From positions 1 through 52,896 of the forward strand of contig JALZUQ010000062.1 in the NCBI GenBank assembly GCA_023301465.1: a stretch of DNA of 52,896 bases, in the 5' to 3' direction. A model generated the notes under the pieces. The model had not been told where the DNA came from, made no database searches, and saw only the letters and a program-made list of their open reading frames with translations. Shown here piece after piece: positions 25,557-52,457 of the stretch. The translations under genes and the position numbers were made by a program. The stretch is from Oligoflexales bacterium (lineage in GTDB: Bacteria > Bdellovibrionota_B > Oligoflexia > Oligoflexales > JALZUQ01). Within the stretch, counting starts at the first letter, position 1, and each line of letters opens with the position of its first letter.

Positions 25557-26729
25557 TTAGATATACTGACGTTTTTTAATTTTTTCTAAGATAATTTTTT
25601 CAGGCATGATTGGGTCTCTAGGAGCAACCATAGAAAAAGACTGTTGCTCACAACGTCTTTTTTCTTTGAGAAGCCACTTCAAAATATCTCGAAGCTTCTT
25701 GTTTTTTTTGTTTTGAAAAAACGGGTCGTTTTTAATGGCATCTCTCGCTTTTTTGAGAGCTCTTACTTCACTAACATCGGTTTCTTTTACAGGGTAATCT
25801 GCAAGATCAAGCCTTTCAACGTCTTCAGGAAGCACCCCCAAAAACTTTACATCAGGAGCACAGTAGTCTGCGTTTCTTATCAAAGATGAAGCAGATCCTG
25901 CTTTTAGTGTTCTGTATATATTTTGAAGAGTATAAGCATCAAGATCACCAAAAAAGTATAGTGGAATTTTCAGTTGGTCTTGAATGGTTTTCACCCAACC
26001 TCTTACGCCGTTAGAGGGGACACCTTGACTACCAATGACAATACACTTATTTCTTTTGGTCATCCCATTTAACACAAGTGTTTTTGCTGTACCTTCTGAT
26101 TCTACAATTAAACCAAAATCAATTTTGCCTTTTGTTTTTAACTTCAAGTTTTGAGGCCTGTTTTGAGGCATGTACGGCAAAGAACCTAGCTTTGACAAAT
26201 CAACCGTAGCTTTCTTTCCGTCAGGCAGCGTTTCCACAACAATGAGCTGTTGCGAATAAGTTTGTCCACCCCGGTCATTGGCAATACAGTTAAAATCTTC
26301 ACGGTAGCACTCCATCATTTCACAAATAAATGAGATAATTGCATTTGATTCATTCTCATCTTCAAAGGCCAAAGGTTTTAGTTTCTTGTTTTGTTTTAAC
26401 TCACCTTTCGCAATATAATAAAGCTCACGCTTGGTTTTTACAGCACCTGACTCTAGGTTGTGCAACATGATCTCCAGCATGAAAATTGCCCTAGACATCT
26501 TTTTGACAGAGCTCACATTCAGTTCAGTTTTTACTTTTTTATCGCCGGGTACCAGAAAACCCTTAGACGGGTTATAAATTGAATTATCCAATGAGCACTT
26601 AGTTGCTTGCAACATAGGTCGTCTTGCCCGTTCAAGATCTTTCAACATTTTTTCACAAATTTCTTTTGAAAAACGTATGACTTCTTTACTAGTTTTGGAG
26701 TTGCCTTTTGAGGCTGAACGAGTTGCCAT
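25557..26729 (-). CDS. top6A: DNA topoisomerase VI subunit A (Spo11-like)
   Basis: Cleavage subunit of a type IIB topoisomerase, which makes double-strand breaks with 2-base overhangs. The winged-helix (5Y-CAP) domain has the active-site motif KTKRELYYIAKGEL, where Tyr105 aligns with the catalytic tyrosine of archaeal Topo VI-A and Spo11. The TOPRIM domain keeps its acidic residues in LIVESEGTAKTL (Glu near 210-212) and FFGDLDAYTL (Asp262, Asp264). The GSQGVPSNGVRGWV segment matches the family. It is 390 aa, near the archaeal length. Its ATG follows the B-subunit stop with no gap. Catalytic residues look intact, so activity is expected. Confidence 0.88.
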   Translation of the reverse strand: MATRSASKGNSKTSKEVIRFSKEICEKMLKDLERARRPMLQATKCSLDNSIYNPSKGFLVPGDKKVKTELNVSSVKKMSRAIFMLEIMLHNLESGAVKTKRELYYIAKGELKQNKKLKPLAFEDENESNAIISFICEMMECYREDFNCIANDRGGQTYSQQLIVVETLPDGKKATVDLSKLGSLPYMPQNRPQNLKLKTKGKIDFGLIVESEGTAKTLVLNGMTKRNKCIVIGSQGVPSNGVRGWVKTIQDQLKIPLYFFGDLDAYTLQNIYRTLKAGSASSLIRNADYCAPDVKFLGVLPEDVERLDLADYPVKETDVSEVRALKKARDAIKNDPFFQNKKNKKLRDILKWLLKEKRRCEQQSFSMVAPRDPIMPEKIILEKIKKRQYI

Positions 26730-28694
26730 TTATTTTTTCCCTTTTTTCTTCTTCGCTACTTTTTTAGCGGTTTTTTTTGTTTTCTTTTTAGCGATCTTCT
26801 TGGTTGTTTTTTTCTTTGTTGCTTTCTTTGCTACTTTTTTTGCTTTCTTTTTCGTTTTTTTGTTTGTCTTCTTCGCGGTTTTTTTCTTTGATTTTTTCGG
26901 CTTAACATCTTCTTCATCATCATCATCAAATTGAGACATATCAGTTAGTTCAGCGACAATTTCTTTTGCTGTTTTTTTCTTTGAACCACTGCTTAAGTTC
27001 TCTTCATCGTCTTCTTGTTGGAGTTCTAGAGCGTTTTCAAAGACTGAAGGCATTTTTTCTAATTGCGACGACAAATGCTTTTCTAGTTTTAACGCAGCTT
27101 CGTCCAACTGGACTTTTGCTTTTTCTGAGTCTTTATCCAGGATTTTATATAAACCATCCGTTGCTTTCTTTCGCGTAGCAGCAGAAGCTTTGGTGATCCC
27201 ACACAAGCTTTCTACCAAAATAGGAGCAAATTGTTGTATGTGTTCAATCTTATCTTTAAGATCTCTAGCTTTGATTTCTCTTTTTAAATGCTTAGACAGT
27301 TTTTTACCTGCTTGCATAAGTCCACGGCGAATTTCTTCAACCAGCTCTTCAGCAGCATCAATCGTTTCTTTCGATGCGTTTTTAAACTTTATAAATGGAG
27401 ACACAACACTTACAGCAATAATATATGGGCCGTTGGGGATTGAACCCTTAGACTGCCTTAAAGAATAGGTTCTCCAATTTACTTTTTGGATAGACTTCAC
27501 AATGGCACAAGACGCTTTATCAAACTGTAGTGGAACTCTATTTGCAAATCTTAGCACTTGAGCAGAGCCATCGGAATCGGAACTACTTCCTTTTAGGCGT
27601 GCAATCGCCACTTCTATTTGAACTGGCTTAAAATCGCAGATCGTTGGCTTTCTCGTTTGAACCGAAATAAAATCAATTTCACCAAGTCTTCGAATACTCT
27701 TTGAAAGAGCTTCTTCACCAACAGCAACAACTGAATTTGTAGCCGGTGGTTTTAATGTATAGTCTTGAATACCTGCGTAGAGGTCTTTCATGAATTTTTC
27801 GTCTACTTTTGCAAGAGACATATCCATTTTTGACTTGGGTAGTTTTGCTTCTGAAAAAATACCTTTGATAGCTGGATCTGAAAGCCTTGAAAATCCTTTT
27901 TTGAGCCAGTTTCGAACTTTTTCTCTACCGTACAAACTTCCATGTGTAATGAACTCACCAAGCTTCATCGTATGAGGGTGAGGCATCACAGCACCCGGCA
28001 CTTTTGGAACATCGTCACTGACACGCTCTATGACTTTTTCATCTTGGTCTAAGAGCTGATAAACTAAACGCATATGAGGGTTCAGTAAGATATTTCCTCT
28101 TATAAAGTTAAGAATTCCCGCTTCACCGTTTAGCTGAATTCGACCATCAATTAAAAACTCTACTTGAGTACCTTGCTGATACTTCCAATCAATAGACTTC
28201 TTTGATTTCATGCGACCCATGTTGTTTTTAAGATCGATTTCTATATTTACCGAAACAGCTTTTCGCATGCTCTTTGTCTTTGAAATAACTTTTGCACCCG
28301 TAGCGGTAGTTTGTTGTGCCCAAGTTGTCGCTGCAGAGATACCAATACCCTGCTGACCACGAGAACACCTTCCACGACCAAACTTTGAAGACGCAAGGTA
28401 TTCACCAAACACCTTGGATAAGTCCTCAGGCTTAATGCCCGGACCATTATCACGGACCTGAATATAAATACGCTCAGTATTCTTCAGAGAACCTTTGCCA
28501 CGTCTTTCTATCTTTAAATAAATTTCAGGCAGCACGCCTGCTTCTTCACAAGCATCTAAAGAATTATCAATAGATTCTTTAAGAGTGGTCAACACCGCTT
28601 TTGTCGGTGAAGAAAAACCTACCTGTTGTAAATTCTTAGCAAAATACTCTGCAGTGCTACTTTTGGTAATACGAGAACGACTCGAGGCTGCCAT
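26730..28694 (-). CDS. top6B: DNA topoisomerase VI subunit B with lysine-rich tail
   Basis: ATPase subunit of topoisomerase VI. The GHKL fold is intact: TLKESIDNSLDACEEAG (N box), VRDNGPGI (G1), SKFGRGRCSRGQQGIGISAA (G2 and lid). Further on are the H2TH region and a transducer domain with LRFANRVPLQFD, near the conserved switch-lysine region. After about residue 480 there is a helical extension, an acidic patch (DDDDEED) and then a tail, residues 598-654, in which 35 of 57 residues are lysine with interspersed A, T and V. It resembles bacterial histone-H1-like proteins. The tail should bind DNA or other polyanions. It is the first gene of the top6B-top6A-yqeY unit. Confidence 0.9.
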   Translation of the reverse strand: MAASSRSRITKSSTAEYFAKNLQQVGFSSPTKAVLTTLKESIDNSLDACEEAGVLPEIYLKIERRGKGSLKNTERIYIQVRDNGPGIKPEDLSKVFGEYLASSKFGRGRCSRGQQGIGISAATTWAQQTTATGAKVISKTKSMRKAVSVNIEIDLKNNMGRMKSKKSIDWKYQQGTQVEFLIDGRIQLNGEAGILNFIRGNILLNPHMRLVYQLLDQDEKVIERVSDDVPKVPGAVMPHPHTMKLGEFITHGSLYGREKVRNWLKKGFSRLSDPAIKGIFSEAKLPKSKMDMSLAKVDEKFMKDLYAGIQDYTLKPPATNSVVAVGEEALSKSIRRLGEIDFISVQTRKPTICDFKPVQIEVAIARLKGSSSDSDGSAQVLRFANRVPLQFDKASCAIVKSIQKVNWRTYSLRQSKGSIPNGPYIIAVSVVSPFIKFKNASKETIDAAEELVEEIRRGLMQAGKKLSKHLKREIKARDLKDKIEHIQQFAPILVESLCGITKASAATRKKATDGLYKILDKDSEKAKVQLDEAALKLEKHLSSQLEKMPSVFENALELQQEDDEENLSSGSKKKTAKEIVAELTDMSQFDDDDEEDVKPKKSKKKTAKKTNKKTKKKAKKVAKKATKKKTTKKIAKKKTKKTAKKVAKKKKGKK

Positions 28695-45377: not shown

Positions 45378-45508
45378 ACTTTGCCTAAACTACAGTGTTT
45401 CTTAGAGAGATAATCGGTATTTAAGGTTAGACCTGAATGAGTTTCTACCATGCGAGACATAGCTCATTATATAACGCGATGGAATAATTGGACAAAAATG
45501 GGATTTTA

Positions 45509-46099
45509 ATGCATAGTTCAAACATGCATTTCATTGATCTCAACATCTTAAAATTCTTTAATCAAGACTTGTTTAGCCCTTTTGCTACTAGAGTTTTTAC
45601 CTTTGCAAGTTCGCCTTACCCGTATGTTATTTTTGCATTATTACTTTTCTTTGTGTCTTTTAAAAACCTTCCTTGGAAAAAAGCCATTAGCATCATCATT
45701 ATTAGTGCGTTAATTGTTGGGTTTTGTGATGTAGTATGTACTTACTATTTCAAAAGAACTTTTTATGCTGTTAGGCCATGTGCCATTTATGATTGGGTTA
45801 TGAAACCACCATCATGCAACGGCAGGCATTCGTTCCCTTCAAATCACTCTATTAATATCGCTAGTTTAGTGGGCTGTTTTCTTTTAGTCTGCAAGAGCAT
45901 CTTCTCTAGAAAACATTTTTTTAATATTAGCATTGTATCTATTTTAGCGGCGTTTACAGTAGGAGCATCTAGAGTTTACTTTGCACAACATCGCCCATCT
46001 GAAGCACTCATGGGTTTGATTCTAGGTTTTTATATTAGCTGGTTTGTCTTGGAAAATTTTACTTTTTACAAAAAAAATACCCCTGCCCATGCCAAGTAA
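45509..46099 (+). CDS. PAP2-family membrane phosphatase
   Basis: 196 aa with about five hydrophobic spans. The PAP2 motifs are present: KRTFYAVRP (motif 1), FPSNHS (motif 2, catalytic His) and SRVYFAQHRPSE (motif 3, with Glu where Asp is usual). Such enzymes dephosphorylate undecaprenyl pyrophosphate, phosphatidate or lipid A. The HSFPSNH context and its neighbour uppP make undecaprenyl pyrophosphate or lipid A plausible substrates. A TTG at 45488 with a weak GGA is an alternative start. Confidence 0.82.
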   Translation: MHSSNMHFIDLNILKFFNQDLFSPFATRVFTFASSPYPYVIFALLLFFVSFKNLPWKKAISIIIISALIVGFCDVVCTYYFKRTFYAVRPCAIYDWVMKPPSCNGRHSFPSNHSINIASLVGCFLLVCKSIFSRKHFFNISIVSILAAFTVGASRVYFAQHRPSEALMGLILGFYISWFVLENFTFYKKNTPAHAK

Positions 46100-46117
46100 A
46101 TATATTTTTTATCAGGC

Positions 46118-46900
46118 TTACGGATTCATCACAGCGTAAATTAAGAACAATGCTAAAATAATTCTATAAACCGCAAAAACTTCAAACCCAAGACGTTTCA
46201 CAAACCAAAGAAAGTAGTGAATCGCAATAAGGCCTACGACCCCAGACACTAAAAAACCGGCAACAAAATCCCATTGCGACATTAAACTTAAAATATCTCT
46301 AGACTTTAAAACAGAGGCACCAAGCATTACTGGCGTACCAAGTAAAAAAGAAAATTTTGCTGCAGCATTACGGTTTAATCCAACTAACCGACCACCAATA
46401 ATGGTGATACCACTTCTAGAAACTCCGGGAATCAACGCTATAACCTGAAAAAAACCAACACACAGTATTCGCGAAAAACTTAAACTTGAGATTTCTTGCT
46501 TTGAACTAACCTTCCTATCAACAACCACTAGAATGACTCCAACCACAATCAACGCAATAGCCATTACCATAAAGTTTCCATGGAGAAGATCTTCAATTTT
46601 ATCATCAAACAACAAACCAATTACAGCAGCTGGAAGCGTCGCAACAGCAAGCCTAAAAAGCATTGAGTCAAATATTTTCTTTTTTATGATTTGATCTTTA
46701 AACTCAGCTAGGTAGTTTAACCAATCTTTATAAAAATAACTGACAATCGCAAGTGAAGTCCCAAGGTGTAGACCCACGTTAAAACCCATTGAAAGCTTTT
46801 TGTTTGAAATAAACTCAGAGTAAATCAACAAGTGAGCCGAAGAAGATATAGGCAAAAACTCAGCAATTCCCTGAATAATTCCTAATATAATGGAGTCCAT
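46118..46900 (-). CDS. uppP: Undecaprenyl-diphosphate phosphatase
   Basis: Regenerates undecaprenyl phosphate, the lipid carrier for peptidoglycan and other wall polymers. It has the BacA/UppP signatures GIIQGIAEFLPISSSAHLLI at the N-terminus and LIPGVSRSGITIIGGRL in the middle, plus seven or eight hydrophobic spans. It is 260 aa, near the usual length. It starts 20 nt after egtD, so it may share that transcript. The PAP2 gene converges on it with 18 nt between the stops. Confidence 0.94.
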   Translation of the reverse strand: MDSIILGIIQGIAEFLPISSSAHLLIYSEFISNKKLSMGFNVGLHLGTSLAIVSYFYKDWLNYLAEFKDQIIKKKIFDSMLFRLAVATLPAAVIGLLFDDKIEDLLHGNFMVMAIALIVVGVILVVVDRKVSSKQEISSLSFSRILCVGFFQVIALIPGVSRSGITIIGGRLVGLNRNAAAKFSFLLGTPVMLGASVLKSRDILSLMSQWDFVAGFLVSGVVGLIAIHYFLWFVKRLGFEVFAVYRIILALFLIYAVMNP

Positions 46901-46920: not shown

Positions 46921-47925
46921 TTAAATCTTTTTATGTACTTTTAAGAAAAAATCTGCAAAATATTTTTTTGAGTCATAGTAAACATTTTGCAGAGAAAAAC
47001 CTGCATGATTCGCCATTTCTTTCATTTCACTGCAAAGGTATTTGTAGGATGACTCAACATGAATGGCTTCAAAGGCTTTAAATTCAAACTTACGGTTCAA
47101 GGCATCTACTTGAACAGACTGTTTTTCTAAGCTCACTAAAAAACTCTCCATAGCACCTAATTTAACATTATATGTGCCATAGTGCTGAAACTTAGAAGTA
47201 TCAATATTAGCACCAAGTTCGCGATTAATGCGTGATAATAAATTAATATTAAAATCTTTTGTATAGCCTTCTCTGTCATTATACGCCCAAAGCATCTTAT
47301 CAATATCTTTTTTAAGGTCTGCACCAATAAGAACATAATCCCCATCTTGCAGAACATTCCAAAGGGTTTTCAAAAAAACCTCAGCTTGCGGCCTTCTAAA
47401 ATTACCGATGTTTGACCCCAAAAAAAGAACTAAACGCTGACATGTTGGTTGAGCACGCAACCATTTTAGGGATTGAAAGTATTCGCCTTGCAAGCACTGA
47501 ATATCTAAATCAGGAAAAAACTTACTGAAGCGTTCCGACAGGTCTTCTAAGGCTTGTTTTGAAATATCTATGGGGTAGTAAGTCGTGTCAATGTTACTAT
47601 CTAATACCGCTTCTATTAAATGTTTTGTTTTATATCCATCGCCAGCACCTAATTCAATTACTTGCAGTTTCTGATTTTTATCAAAACCAGAAATCATCGA
47701 CTTTCCATGGGTTTTAATAATTTCGAGCTCACACTCAGTGAGGTAGTAGTCTTTTGCAGACATTATTTTTTGGAAAATCTGACTACCCTTAGCGTCATAG
47801 AAATGGATAGGTGGAATATATTTAGGATGAGAAGTAAAACCCATTAGAACATCTAACGCTAATTGTTCAGTTCTACTGGTTGCCGGTGAGTTTTCTTTTG
47901 TGAGTTCTATTATCTCAGTTGTCAT
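46921..47925 (-). CDS. egtD: L-histidine N-alpha-methyltransferase (EgtD)
   Basis: Trimethylates histidine to hercynine using SAM, the first step of ergothioneine synthesis. The N-terminal PIHFYDAKGSQIFQKIMSAKDYYLTECE, the SAM motif QVIELGAGDGYKTKHLIEAV, and LFLGSNIGNFRRPQAEVFL are characteristic. Length is 334 aa, near the usual 320-330. Its ATG lies inside the last codons of egtB (11-nt overlap) and has no Shine-Dalgarno sequence, so it is translationally coupled. Confidence 0.92.
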   Translation of the reverse strand: MTTEIIELTKENSPATSRTEQLALDVLMGFTSHPKYIPPIHFYDAKGSQIFQKIMSAKDYYLTECELEIIKTHGKSMISGFDKNQKLQVIELGAGDGYKTKHLIEAVLDSNIDTTYYPIDISKQALEDLSERFSKFFPDLDIQCLQGEYFQSLKWLRAQPTCQRLVLFLGSNIGNFRRPQAEVFLKTLWNVLQDGDYVLIGADLKKDIDKMLWAYNDREGYTKDFNINLLSRINRELGANIDTSKFQHYGTYNVKLGAMESFLVSLEKQSVQVDALNRKFEFKAFEAIHVESSYKYLCSEMKEMANHAGFSLQNVYYDSKKYFADFFLKVHKKI

Positions 47926-49126
47926 AAGCTAGTCGCACCCCTGAATACATCCATCTTTCATGTGGGTAATAAAAATTACGATACGACGCCCTAAGATGAT
48001 CCAATGGCGTTGCGTAACTTCCCCCTCTCAAAACTTTCTGTGAACACATGAATTTCGAGTTATACTCCATGGTAGCATCATTTGCCGGTTTGTACCTAGG
48101 ATAGCTAGCAAAATCTGAGCTAGTCCATTGCCACAACGGGTCACGGGCATGTTTAATTTTTGAGAAAACTGGCATTTCACAAGAGTCTATATCTGAGCTT
48201 TGGAGCTTATTGAAAAGCAGCTCTAACTCCGACTCTAGCGGTAGTCTGGCTTGTTTCCACTTTGCAAACGCTGATGCTTCGTAATAATTTACATGACTAA
48301 CTGGACGCTTTAAATTGAGTGGATGCCAACCCTTCCACAAACAAAATTCCTCCCAATTCCCATTTTGATTTTTTCTCCAATACAAAGGGGCGTTGATTTT
48401 ATTAAGACGCACCCATGAAAATCCATCACTTAACCAATGAGCGAAGTTTTGATAACCACCCGACTCCATAAATTCTAAATAATCAGAGTTTGTAACAAGA
48501 GCTCTATCTACATGTGCATCGTATAAATAGACTTTGTGTTGAGGCGACTCATTGTCATAAGAAAAATATGCATTCGCACCAATTTCATATAAACCTTCTT
48601 GAATTCTAAAGTGTTCATTGTCTGTGGAGTTATTTTCGAATACATAAGATGTTTTTATTTGTTCCGCGTTTCTTTGAAGGCTTCTAATAGACTTTAAGTC
48701 TTGTAACATCAGTTCTTGATGTTGTTTTTCATGGTGAATTCCCAGTAAAACAAGCTCTCCAATATCTGCTGAAACGCCTGCTGTGAGTGCGTCGCACATT
48801 TTTTCTTCTATGGTATGTCGGTACTCAAGCACACCATCAAAGGCAGGCTTCATAATAAGACTGCGTTTTCCTCTGGGAACTCTTTCACCAAATGCTTCAT
48901 AGTAAGAGTTAAAAGCATGATTAATATCATCATCTACGCTGTAACTTGGGTCCAAAGCCGTCAATATTATTTGATCAAAAAACCAAGTTGTATGACCTAA
49001 GTGCCATTTGATAGGGCTAACCCATTCTTCAGGCTGAACAGTCATTTCTTCTCTTGAAAAAAACTCTGTCATATCAGATGTAAATTTACGAGTGCGTTTA
49101 AAAGAGTCTAGTAAACTTTGATTCAT
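47915..49126 (-). CDS. egtB: Hercynine sulfoxide synthase (EgtB-type)
   Basis: Non-heme iron enzyme that forms the C-S bond between hercynine and a cysteine donor with oxygen. The DinB-like N-terminal domain has the iron ligands: WHLGHTTWFFDQ (His45) and GIHHEKQHQELML (His132 and His136). The C-terminal FGE-sulfatase domain has LWQWTSSDF, VLRGGSYATPLDHLRASYRN and SGVRLAY. It is 403 aa. No egtA or egtC is near, so the donor may be free cysteine and not gamma-glutamylcysteine. ATG 49126 shares a base with the upstream stop. Confidence 0.9.
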   Translation of the reverse strand: MNQSLLDSFKRTRKFTSDMTEFFSREEMTVQPEEWVSPIKWHLGHTTWFFDQIILTALDPSYSVDDDINHAFNSYYEAFGERVPRGKRSLIMKPAFDGVLEYRHTIEEKMCDALTAGVSADIGELVLLGIHHEKQHQELMLQDLKSIRSLQRNAEQIKTSYVFENNSTDNEHFRIQEGLYEIGANAYFSYDNESPQHKVYLYDAHVDRALVTNSDYLEFMESGGYQNFAHWLSDGFSWVRLNKINAPLYWRKNQNGNWEEFCLWKGWHPLNLKRPVSHVNYYEASAFAKWKQARLPLESELELLFNKLQSSDIDSCEMPVFSKIKHARDPLWQWTSSDFASYPRYKPANDATMEYNSKFMCSQKVLRGGSYATPLDHLRASYRNFYYPHERWMYSGVRLAYDN

Positions 49127-50493
49127 TAACACCTCTCAAAATGAGCCGTGAAATGTCTTAAAAATTCAGGCTGATAGGTAATATTGTGCTTAGGAATCTC
49201 TTTTCGGTTTTGCCAAACTTCTTCAATCACCTCGATGAGATAATCAAAATGAGATTGAGTATAAACTCTTCTTGGGAAAGCAAGTCTCACAAGCTCTAAC
49301 CTTGCAGGTATCTCTTTTCCATCTTCGTTTTTACCAAACATAACAGAACCAAGCTCGACACCACGGACTCCACCCTGCAAATAAAGTTCGTTTACAAGCC
49401 CAATTCCTGGAAAATCTTCAGGATTTAAATGTTCACAAAAGGCTTTTGCATCCAAAAAGATAGCATGCCCACCTGCAGGTTTTACAATTGGTATATTCTT
49501 AGCCGTTAGTTTTTCTTCAAGGTATTTTACTGTGGCGTGTCTATAGTTTTGATAATCAAACTCAAGTGCTTCCTTAAGTCCAACAGAAATCACTTCTAAG
49601 TCCCTACCTGCCAGACCACCGTAGGTTGGAAAACCCTCTTGCATGATCAAAGCGTTTTTAAAATGAACGGCCCACTCAGGATCACGACAAACGAAAAAGC
49701 CGCCAATATTTGATAAACCATCTTTTTTGCAACTCATAGTCGCACCATCTGCAAGATCAAACATTTCTCTTGAAATCTCTAACATGCTCTTATCGGCATA
49801 AGCGGGTTCACGGGTTTTAATAAAATATGCATTTTCTGCAAAGCGACAAGCATCAATGATCATCGGAATATTATGCTTAGACAAAACTTTTTTAATGTCT
49901 TTCATATTTTGCATCGAAACTGGTTGACCACCACCAGAGTTATTTGTGACGGTAATCATGCAAAACGGAATGTTTTCTACACCTTCTTGCTCGATTACTT
50001 GCTCAAGCTTTTTCACATCCATATCACCTTTGAAATTACAAATATAGTCCGGTTGATACGCATGCTCATAAAGAAGATCCAAAGCCTTAGCACCTGAAGA
50101 TTCAATATTTGCACGAGTTGTATCAAAGTGAGAGTTATTTGGAATGACCGAAGTAGCTTTCACTTGAGTCTTAACTAGTAAAGACTCAGCCGCTCTCCCT
50201 TGATGTGTTGGAAAAATATGCGGCATACCTGTAATTTCACTTATGGTACTTTCAAATTTTTTCCACGACTTCGACCCTGCGTAACTTTCGTCACCCAACA
50301 TTAATGCAGCCCATTGTTGAGCCGACATTGCACCGGTTCCAGAGTCTGTCAGTAAATCAATGCAGCAATGTTCAGCGTCTATTAAGAAAACATTATTATG
50401 AGACTCTTTAAGATATTTAGATCTTTCACTCGCAGTGGTTAAGTGAATTTGCTCTGTCATTTTAATTCTAAACGGTTCAATAATGGTCTTCAT
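49126..50493 (-). CDS. Tryptophanase/tyrosine phenol-lyase-family PLP beta-lyase
   Basis: 455 aa with high overall similarity to the tryptophanase/TPL family: EPFRIKM, DLLTDSGTGAMSAQQWAALM, PTHQGRAAE, and the PLP lysine in MSCKKDGLSNIGGF. Two selectivity positions are tryptophanase-like, not TPL-like. Asp stands in HFDTTRANIE, where TPL has Thr124. Leu stands in GGVRGVELGS, where TPL has Arg381 and E. coli tryptophanase has Ile. It is the first gene of an operon with egtB and egtD. A role as the C-S lyase (EgtE function) is possible; plain tryptophanase activity, making indole, is the alternative. ATG 50493 follows GGGAG. Confidence 0.85.
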   Translation of the reverse strand: MKTIIEPFRIKMTEQIHLTTASERSKYLKESHNNVFLIDAEHCCIDLLTDSGTGAMSAQQWAALMLGDESYAGSKSWKKFESTISEITGMPHIFPTHQGRAAESLLVKTQVKATSVIPNNSHFDTTRANIESSGAKALDLLYEHAYQPDYICNFKGDMDVKKLEQVIEQEGVENIPFCMITVTNNSGGGQPVSMQNMKDIKKVLSKHNIPMIIDACRFAENAYFIKTREPAYADKSMLEISREMFDLADGATMSCKKDGLSNIGGFFVCRDPEWAVHFKNALIMQEGFPTYGGLAGRDLEVISVGLKEALEFDYQNYRHATVKYLEEKLTAKNIPIVKPAGGHAIFLDAKAFCEHLNPEDFPGIGLVNELYLQGGVRGVELGSVMFGKNEDGKEIPARLELVRLAFPRRVYTQSHFDYLIEVIEEVWQNRKEIPKHNITYQPEFLRHFTAHFERC

Positions 50494-50646
50494 AGTACTC
50501 CCTACTTTGCCGTTTTTAGGCATCAATTTTTTATGCGTATAGATCACCCATAATTACAGGCACATACTATAAAGAAATAAGGACTTGGTCTATGGCTTGA
50601 ATGGTATTTTATGAATCATATTGGGAACATGCCGTTAATATTGCTT

Positions 50647-51429
50647 TTATGCCTCTTGCTGCTGCTCAACCCATTCACAGAGGTCGCGGTATTGATCAAC
50701 GGTGATATTTTCAGCTCGTTTTTGCAGGTCCCAACCCAGTACTTCTAGGCCGTCACGGTATGGAGCCAAGCTATTTCGAATGGTTTTTCTTCTTTTACTA
50801 AAAGCGTTGTGGGTAATTTCTTTTAGGTTTTTTAGAAAACGCTCAGAAGGAAATGAATCAAAAGGGTCCATCCAAAAAATTTGAGAGTCTACTTTTGGAA
50901 CAGGCTTAAACTGAAGCCTTGATACATCACAAACTTTTTGAACTTTTCCATGCAGCTGAGTAATAACCGACAGCCTTCCATAGTCCTTGGTGTTTACGGA
51001 TGCTACTAATCTCTTGGCAAATTCTTTTTGAACCATAAACCCACAACCTGAAAAAAGATGAAAGTTTTGAAAAACCTTCAACAGTATTTGAGTTGATATA
51101 TTATAAGGAATATTTCCAGTCACAACGGCTTTACCTGAAAAATCCCCTACTATTGACTGGAGGTCCGTCTTTAAAAAATCTTGATGCAAGATTGGATCAG
51201 AACCAAGCTCATCATCAGCTTTGATATACGAAACCACATCTTCATCAATTTCAATCATTTGAATTGGAGATATGTTTTTTAAGAGGCGACTTAAAACCCC
51301 TTTTCCAGGGCCAATTTCAATAATTAACTCTGGAGATTTCTCAGAGATTTTGTCTAGTAGGGGGTGCATAGGTGAACTATCTTTTAAAAACACCTGACCA
51401 TATTTCTTTTTTTGTCTAAATGAACTCAA
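50647..51429 (-). CDS. rsmA: 16S rRNA dimethyladenosine transferase
   Basis: Dimethylates A1518 and A1519 in helix 45 of 16S rRNA (KsgA). The N-terminal KKYGQVFLKDSSPMHPLL, the SAM motif LIIEIGPGKGVLSRLL, the catalytic-type motif VTGNIPYNISTQ and the C-terminal AFSKRRKTIRNSL match the family. It is 260 aa, normal. It overlaps tsaD by 4 nt; rsmA and tsaD are both broadly conserved ribosome and tRNA maintenance genes. Confidence 0.95.
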   Translation of the reverse strand: MSSFRQKKKYGQVFLKDSSPMHPLLDKISEKSPELIIEIGPGKGVLSRLLKNISPIQMIEIDEDVVSYIKADDELGSDPILHQDFLKTDLQSIVGDFSGKAVVTGNIPYNISTQILLKVFQNFHLFSGCGFMVQKEFAKRLVASVNTKDYGRLSVITQLHGKVQKVCDVSRLQFKPVPKVDSQIFWMDPFDSFPSERFLKNLKEITHNAFSKRRKTIRNSLAPYRDGLEVLGWDLQKRAENITVDQYRDLCEWVEQQQEA

Positions 51430-52457
51430 ATCTTAAAATGCTTTCTTGTAAAATCATAGCGAGTGTATATTTCCCAGTTTTCTTTTCTTAGGTCTTTTAA
51501 CTCTCCACTTTGATAACCGTCATGGGCAAAGCTAGCAATCATTGCTGCATTATCTGAACAGTATTTTTTTTGTGGGAACCAAGTCTTCAATGATTGGAAC
51601 CTCTCAGTAAAGTGTTCTCTCAAATAAGAGTTTGCTGCAACACCACCCGTCACAACAACTTGTCTAGCCTTTGGGAATTCTCTCAGGCACCTTGCAGTAA
51701 CATCTCCTAATTGGGTAATGGCACAAGACTGAAAGCTCGCACAAATATCGGAAATATCTGATTCAGATAAGTTCTTCTGACTTTGAAGATAATACTTCAT
51801 GTGGGTTTTAATTCCAGAATAACTAAAACAAAAAGGTTTCCCTTTGATGTTTACTTTTGGAAGTTTTAATGCGTTTTTGTCACCAGCTTTTGAAAGTTTA
51901 TCTATGATTGGACCGCCGGGATAAGAAAAACCAAGTAGCTTAGAGACCTTGTCAAAAGACTCTCCACAAGCATCATCAATCGTATAACCAAGAAGTTGTA
52001 CACTCCTATCTTCAATGTAATAGATGTTTGTGTGCCCACCTGAAACGACTAATGCAATCGTTGGCTCTACCAGCTCAAACTCTTGTTGGTCAAGCCTTGC
52101 AGAATAAATATGGCTTTCCACATGGTCGACACACACAAGAGGTTTGTCCAAGTGCATGGCCAAGCCCTTCATAAACGAAGACCCAATCATCAAGGAGCCC
52201 ATTAAGCCTGGACCACGTGTGACCGCTAAAAGGTCCACCTCATTTAAGTCGGAGACACCGGACTTTTCAGTTGCTTGGTGAACGACGTCCCATATCGCTT
52301 CGAGGTGTGCTCTTGAAGCAAGTTCCGGTACAATCCCACCGTGTTTTTTATGCATGTCAATCTGAGAGTTCACTACGGATGAATGAACTTGGTAACCATC
52401 TTTTAAAAAAGCTGCGGCGGTATCGTCGCAGCTCGACTCAATTGCAAATACTAACAT
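51426..52457 (-). CDS. tsaD: tRNA N6-threonylcarbamoyladenosine transferase subunit TsaD
   Basis: Catalytic subunit for the universal t6A37 tRNA modification (Kae1/Qri7 family, with TsaB and TsaE). The start AIESSCDDTAAAF, the metal motif CVDHVESHIYSA (two His), ALVVSGGHTNIYY and the VVTGGVAANSYLREHF segment are all present. It is 343 aa, normal. The start is 1 nt after the stop of the CpoB-like gene. Confidence 0.95.
   Translation of the reverse strand: MLVFAIESSCDDTAAAFLKDGYQVHSSVVNSQIDMHKKHGGIVPELASRAHLEAIWDVVHQATEKSGVSDLNEVDLLAVTRGPGLMGSLMIGSSFMKGLAMHLDKPLVCVDHVESHIYSARLDQQEFELVEPTIALVVSGGHTNIYYIEDRSVQLLGYTIDDACGESFDKVSKLLGFSYPGGPIIDKLSKAGDKNALKLPKVNIKGKPFCFSYSGIKTHMKYYLQSQKNLSESDISDICASFQSCAITQLGDVTARCLREFPKARQVVVTGGVAANSYLREHFTERFQSLKTWFPQKKYCSDNAAMIASFAHDGYQSGELKDLRKENWEIYTRYDFTRKHFKI

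Follow-up and report, generated by a model that had tools for sequence, protein, structure and literature searches.

Background

EgtE, the lyase of the last step of ergothioneine biosynthesis, yields ergothioneine, pyruvate and ammonia (PMC4493562), and three-enzyme routes that do without EgtA and EgtC are established (PMC13209761; PMC11993508). According to a review, ergothioneine can also form in a host without a dedicated lyase, through inherent or abiotic activity (PMC11993508). The EgtB of Chloracidobacterium thermophilum (CthEgtB) prefers cysteine over gamma-glutamylcysteine as substrate (PMC10903977). Many bacteria carry egtB and egtD with no recognisable egtE nearby, so the enzyme that frees ergothioneine is often unassigned. 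The locus described here places a tryptophanase-family gene directly before egtB and egtD. Among the papers searched, none joins ergothioneine, tnaA and egtE, and the single one with tryptophanase alongside ergothioneine, EgtB and EgtD names it within a reference title only.

Tryptophanase is a PLP enzyme of fold type I. So is mycobacterial EgtE (PMC10805701), and the initial annotation of the locus, which had assigned EgtE to a different PLP fold group, was wrong on this point; the two enzymes differ in family.

Organisation of the locus

The window, that is, the whole stretch of 52,896 nucleotides that was analysed, belongs to an Oligoflexales draft genome (G000; 66 contigs, 96% complete), the one genome for its genus. 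The gene order on the minus strand is TPR protein, tsaD, rsmA, 153 nt, lyase, egtB, egtD, 20 nt, uppP, with the following features.

50647..52457, minus strand: rsmA and tsaD, 5' of the lyase; part of the order-wide conserved core TPR-tsaD-rsmA
50494..50646, minus strand: 153 nt separating rsmA from the lyase; neither an Rfam match nor a sigma-70-like promoter (consensus scan)
49126..50493, minus strand: tryptophanase-family (beta-eliminating, PLP) lyase, 455 aa; catalytic Lys257 in SCKKD
49126..49128, minus strand: TAATG junction with a 1-nt overlap; the last base of the lyase TAA is the first of the egtB ATG (49126)
47915..49126, minus strand: egtB, ergothioneine sulfoxide synthase, 403 aa; nearest solved structures are those of C. 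thermophilum EgtB
47915..47925, minus strand: 11-nt overlap of the egtB 3' end and the egtD start; egtB stop to 47915, egtD ATG from 47925
46921..47925, minus strand: egtD, histidine N-alpha-methyltransferase, 334 aa, from profiles and solved relatives
46118..46900, minus strand: uppP/bacA-type undecaprenyl-diphosphatase, 20 nt 3' of egtD

Lyase, egtB and egtD are real genes, far beyond chance, and the initial description of three coupled minus-strand genes with overlaps of 1 and 11 nt agrees with the ORFs, strands and coordinates in every respect. The lyase starts with an ATG at 50493, and a GGGAG motif lies just 5' of it. Because tight spacing is common in the window (of 36 co-directional pairs of neighbouring ORFs, 13 overlap or abut), the overlaps are weak evidence for a functional link. 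A tnaC-like leader in the 153-nt gap was considered and rejected: the gap can encode the 9-residue peptide MIHKIPFKP, whose Pro-stop end faintly recalls TnaC, but the peptide has no Trp codon and is probably due to chance.

The TPR-tsaD-rsmA block is conserved and the region 3' of rsmA differs between genomes of the order; thus lyase-egtB-egtD occupies a variable spot. The GC content of the operon (0.36-0.39) matches that of its flanks, giving no sign of a recent foreign origin as a compositional island.

Downstream, uppP is possibly co-transcribed with egtD. The same gene is faced by a PAP2 gene on the plus strand with 18 nt between them (45488-46900), and the pair likely encodes undecaprenyl-diphosphate phosphatases of two unrelated families. 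Elsewhere in the window (25557-28694, minus strand) are adjoining genes that encode Topo VI A (PF21180/PF04406) and Topo VI B (PF09239), the two subunits of a type IIB DNA topoisomerase. Topo VI is mainly archaeal and plant, and is uncommon in bacteria.

Identity of EgtB and EgtD

Profile searches support the identification of egtB and egtD (TIGR03440, PF10017). EgtB passes TIGR03440 with 427.4 bits (cut-off 360, a curated whole-protein score) and falls below the cut-offs for SenA (294 bits, cut-off 420) and OvoA (103 bits, cut-off 400), both of which were rejected. EgtD matches PF10017 with 316 bits and lies slightly below the cut-off of TIGR03438 (286.8 bits, cut-off 290.9), and its solved relatives are EgtD.

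EgtB scores 286 bits against the C. thermophilum structures 8qf6/6qki/6o6l and 103 bits against 4x8b. It is likely of the cysteine type, nearer to CthEgtB than to mycobacterial EgtB, and probably consumes cysteine as donor. This agrees with the cysteine-using route proposed at the outset.

Some EgtDs of the class form a subgroup (46921-47925 in the window; L101-L104 and L127) in which GSNIGN and GAMxS(F/Y)L replace GSTIGN and RIEMHL. In this subgroup a Ser aligns with the Met of the canonical EM(H/W)L motif, and the Glu and Ser of ExS are kept.

Family and active site of the lyase

Membership of the third gene in the tryptophanase family was upheld by the tryptophanase subfamily model NF009709 (642.9 bits, cut-off 285), with 232 bits against PF01212. 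The lyase scores below the equivalog models TIGR02617 (463.5 of 825.8 bits) and NF053783 (534.6 of 750 bits), which are narrow, and below the tyrosine phenol-lyase model TIGR02618 (507.8 bits, cut-off 720.7). The EgtE model TIGR04343 gives no match to it at E 0.001. It is the only tryptophanase in the host genome, and structures of close homologues have been solved.

Residues were compared in an alignment of the window lyase with E. coli TnaA and one tyrosine phenol-lyase. All tested tryptophan indole-lyase (TIL) residues are kept (Y74, R103, D137, R230, K270, Y307, V394, R419 and H463, E. coli numbering), and the position of E. coli I396 is Leu. Asp, Leu and His, not Thr, Arg and Phe, at E. 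coli positions 137, 396 and 463 reject the lyase as a tyrosine phenol-lyase. The lyase departs from the rest of its clade at 27 positions, mostly by mild changes, with none in the catalytic motifs.

E. coli D137 and H463 are D124 and H447 in the window lyase, and correspond to Asp133 and His458 of P. vulgaris TIL. In the P. vulgaris enzyme these two residues matter for L-Trp and not for S-ethyl-cysteine; on the latter substrate the H458A variant has a doubled kcat and a 10-fold higher kcat/Km (PMC11301627). A thiol-only enzyme would be free to lose D124 and H447, and thus their retention suggests that tryptophan remains the selected substrate.

TIL releases ethanethiol from S-ethyl-cysteine (PMC11301627), and E. 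coli tryptophanase has served as a C-S lyase in work on hops, setting thiols free from their cysteine conjugates (PMC11203769). The elimination of thiols from S-alkyl-cysteines by TIL bears out the view that beta-elimination of the tryptophanase type fits C-S cleavage. Because both enzymes cleave thiol conjugates, a side activity of the lyase on hercynylcysteine sulfoxide is chemically reasonable and plausible.

Distribution and phylogeny of the lyase

Lyases were sought in the genome_contigs collection (~85,000 species) with an alignment query, as a single-protein scan gave no matches. The closest lyases, the best 80 among the matches listed, are 55-67% identical to the window lyase. In none of these 80 loci does egtB or egtD lie within 6 kb of the lyase, as far as the contigs reach, and the loci share no conserved neighbours, save for local synteny inside single lineages. 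EgtB is present anywhere in 6 of 44 genomes from the hosts of the best 80 lyases listed. The viral and plasmid lyase copies that were fetched are not linked to egtB or egtD. On a Streptomyces plasmid (L011), a tryptophan dimethylallyltransferase gene lies directly before the tryptophanase, an apparent indole-prenylating pair.

Within the class (58 genomes), EgtB is found in 11 genomes, the lyase in 5 and both in 3 (G000, G011 and G022), counting the G011 lyase, a 56-residue fragment at a contig end. The two co-occur more often than expected when the window genome is counted (Fisher p 0.04) but not without it (p 0.14), a weak signal. The order-mate G022 carries a tyrosine-phenol-lyase-like copy (L005, G022:C60) and a tryptophanase-like copy (L003, G022:C85), the first of which adjoins a gene of glyoxalase/dioxygenase (VOC) appearance.

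In the tree, the window lyase falls in a supported clade of nine (SH-aLRT 99) with alphaproteobacteria including Methylocystis, Calditrichota, a Chitinivibrionales MAG and a Rickettsiales MAG. Its branch is the longest of the clade (0.75), which would fit a changed function.

egtBD operons in other genomes

Eight other genomes of the order have egtB followed by egtD, with the egtD of G011 cut by the contig end. A tryptophanase is next to egtB in 0 of these 8 loci, and no other PLP lyase was recognised beside them in sequences read by eye rather than profiled. Six plasmid egtB loci, from Exiguobacterium, Hydrocarboniclastica, Hymenobacter, Persicobacter, Pseudomonas and Tistrella, are likewise bare egtB-egtD pairs within 4 kb. 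As the order-mates and six unrelated plasmids have bare egtBD, this gene pair does not normally require a linked lyase. The search for lyase-egtB-egtD in other genomes, suggested in the initial annotation, returned 0 of the best 80 lyase loci listed and 0 of the 8 egtB loci of the order, and across these loci the arrangement is found in the window genome only.

Candidates for the last step in the host genome

No EgtE (TIGR04343) over the cut-off of 400 is found in the host genome. EgtC, reported as absent from the operon, has no match over its cut-off of 219 in the genome either, the best being 27 bits in a 612-aa frame. Possible competitors for the EgtE role are four full-length class V proteins (the scan covers class V), which are SufS-like, IscS/NifS-like, SerC-like and SufS/EgtE-like. 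The last of these (382 aa, G000:C8:84438-85583) is the best match to TIGR04343 in the genome.

Role of the lyase

The locus is, on balance, probably a true egtBD operon that was joined by an ordinary tryptophan indole-lyase at the variable spot 3' of tsaD-rsmA. Layout, families, residues and distribution are observed, and we infer the activities, a common transcript and the course of events as follows. A conventional tryptophan indole-lyase gene would have become the first, translationally coupled gene of an egtBD operon. EgtD would convert histidine to hercynine, and the cysteine-type EgtB would form hercynylcysteine sulfoxide from hercynine, cysteine and O2. The lyase would be a PLP-dependent beta-eliminating enzyme with L-tryptophan as its main selected substrate, giving indole, pyruvate and ammonia. 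Final C-S cleavage would proceed as in other bacteria with bare egtBD, through PLP enzymes that are unlinked or promiscuous, and the lyase may add to it by a side activity.

That the lyase is the physiological EgtE, converting hercynylcysteine sulfoxide to ergothioneine sulfenic acid (then reduced), pyruvate and ammonia in a compact three-enzyme pathway, is possible but doubtful. This reading would account for the translational coupling to egtBD in a genome without EgtE or EgtC over cut-off, the chemistry is right (PMC11301627; PMC11203769), the product set would be that of EgtE (PMC4493562), and there is precedent in the routes free of EgtA and EgtC (PMC13209761; PMC11993508). However, the lyase retains an Asp and a His needed only for tryptophan, the arrangement does not recur in the best 80 lyase loci listed, most lyase genomes are without EgtB, and bare egtBD operons manage without a linked lyase; no literature test of the tryptophanase family on a bulky cationic sulfoxide was found. 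The initial proposal that the lyase is EgtE therefore stands in part: general chemistry, adjacency and the lack of an EgtE over cut-off agree with it, while the TIL pocket, the unrelated contexts and the lack of recurrence do not. Similarly, the lyase is not inclined to adjoin egtB in relatives, as that proposal would lead one to expect, but no canonical egtE is found elsewhere in the genome. Beyond adjacency and general chemistry nothing makes the lyase EgtE; both its active site and its distribution favour an ordinary indole-lyase. Nevertheless, pure coincidence is an uncomfortable explanation, given that a cysteine-type beta-lyase offers precisely the chemistry that is lacking.

An improbable alternative is that the lyase acts mainly on cysteine or other cysteine S-conjugates, as a cysteine desulfhydrase or in detoxification, and is tied to the operon via cysteine metabolism. 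The broad beta-elimination capacity of the family would allow this, and EgtB here probably uses up cysteine, but destroying the substrate of EgtB would counteract the pathway, the tryptophan-specific residues are kept, and other genes of cysteine metabolism show no linkage to it in the genome. The SufS/EgtE-like protein at G000:C8:84438-85583 is equally unlikely to be the true EgtE: although it counts among the four full-length class V proteins and no other protein of the genome matches TIGR04343 better, its 61 bits are far under the cut-off of 400, its gene adjoins an AMP-ligase-like gene, and it does not track EgtB, since the genomes that hold its class homologues (G019, G020, G023 and G028) have no full-length EgtB.

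The favoured reading, an ordinary indole-lyase gained by an egtBD operon, would be a caution against reading pathway steps off a single gene neighbourhood. Were the lyase EgtE after all, we would tentatively see a promiscuous indole-lyase recruited into an egtBD operon as terminal C-S lyase, replacing EgtE/Egt2 from another PLP family. Like recruitment could then account for the missing lyase in some bare-egtBD bacteria. The family name would in that case conceal the final step, and one enzyme would serve both indole and ergothioneine chemistry.

Comparison with known systems

The Methylobacterium-type EgtB/EgtD/EgtE route with cysteine as donor (PMC13209761) resembles the window operon in that EgtB is near the cysteine-preferring CthEgtB and no EgtC is found over cut-off; it differs in that the PLP gene of the window is a tryptophanase, not an EgtE (TIGR04343). 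Compared with the five-gene mycobacterial pathway, the window genome is without an EgtC over cut-off. The lyase is like TnaA in its family score (NF009709/PF01212), its tested catalytic and tryptophan-specific residues and its length of 455 aa, whereas it scores under the equivalog cut-offs, has no adjoining tnaC or tnaB, and is coupled to egtBD. Another related system is the two-gene egtB-egtD operon of many bacteria, with which the window operon shares gene order, tight spacing and EgtB family, and from which it is set apart by the tryptophanase-family gene before egtB.
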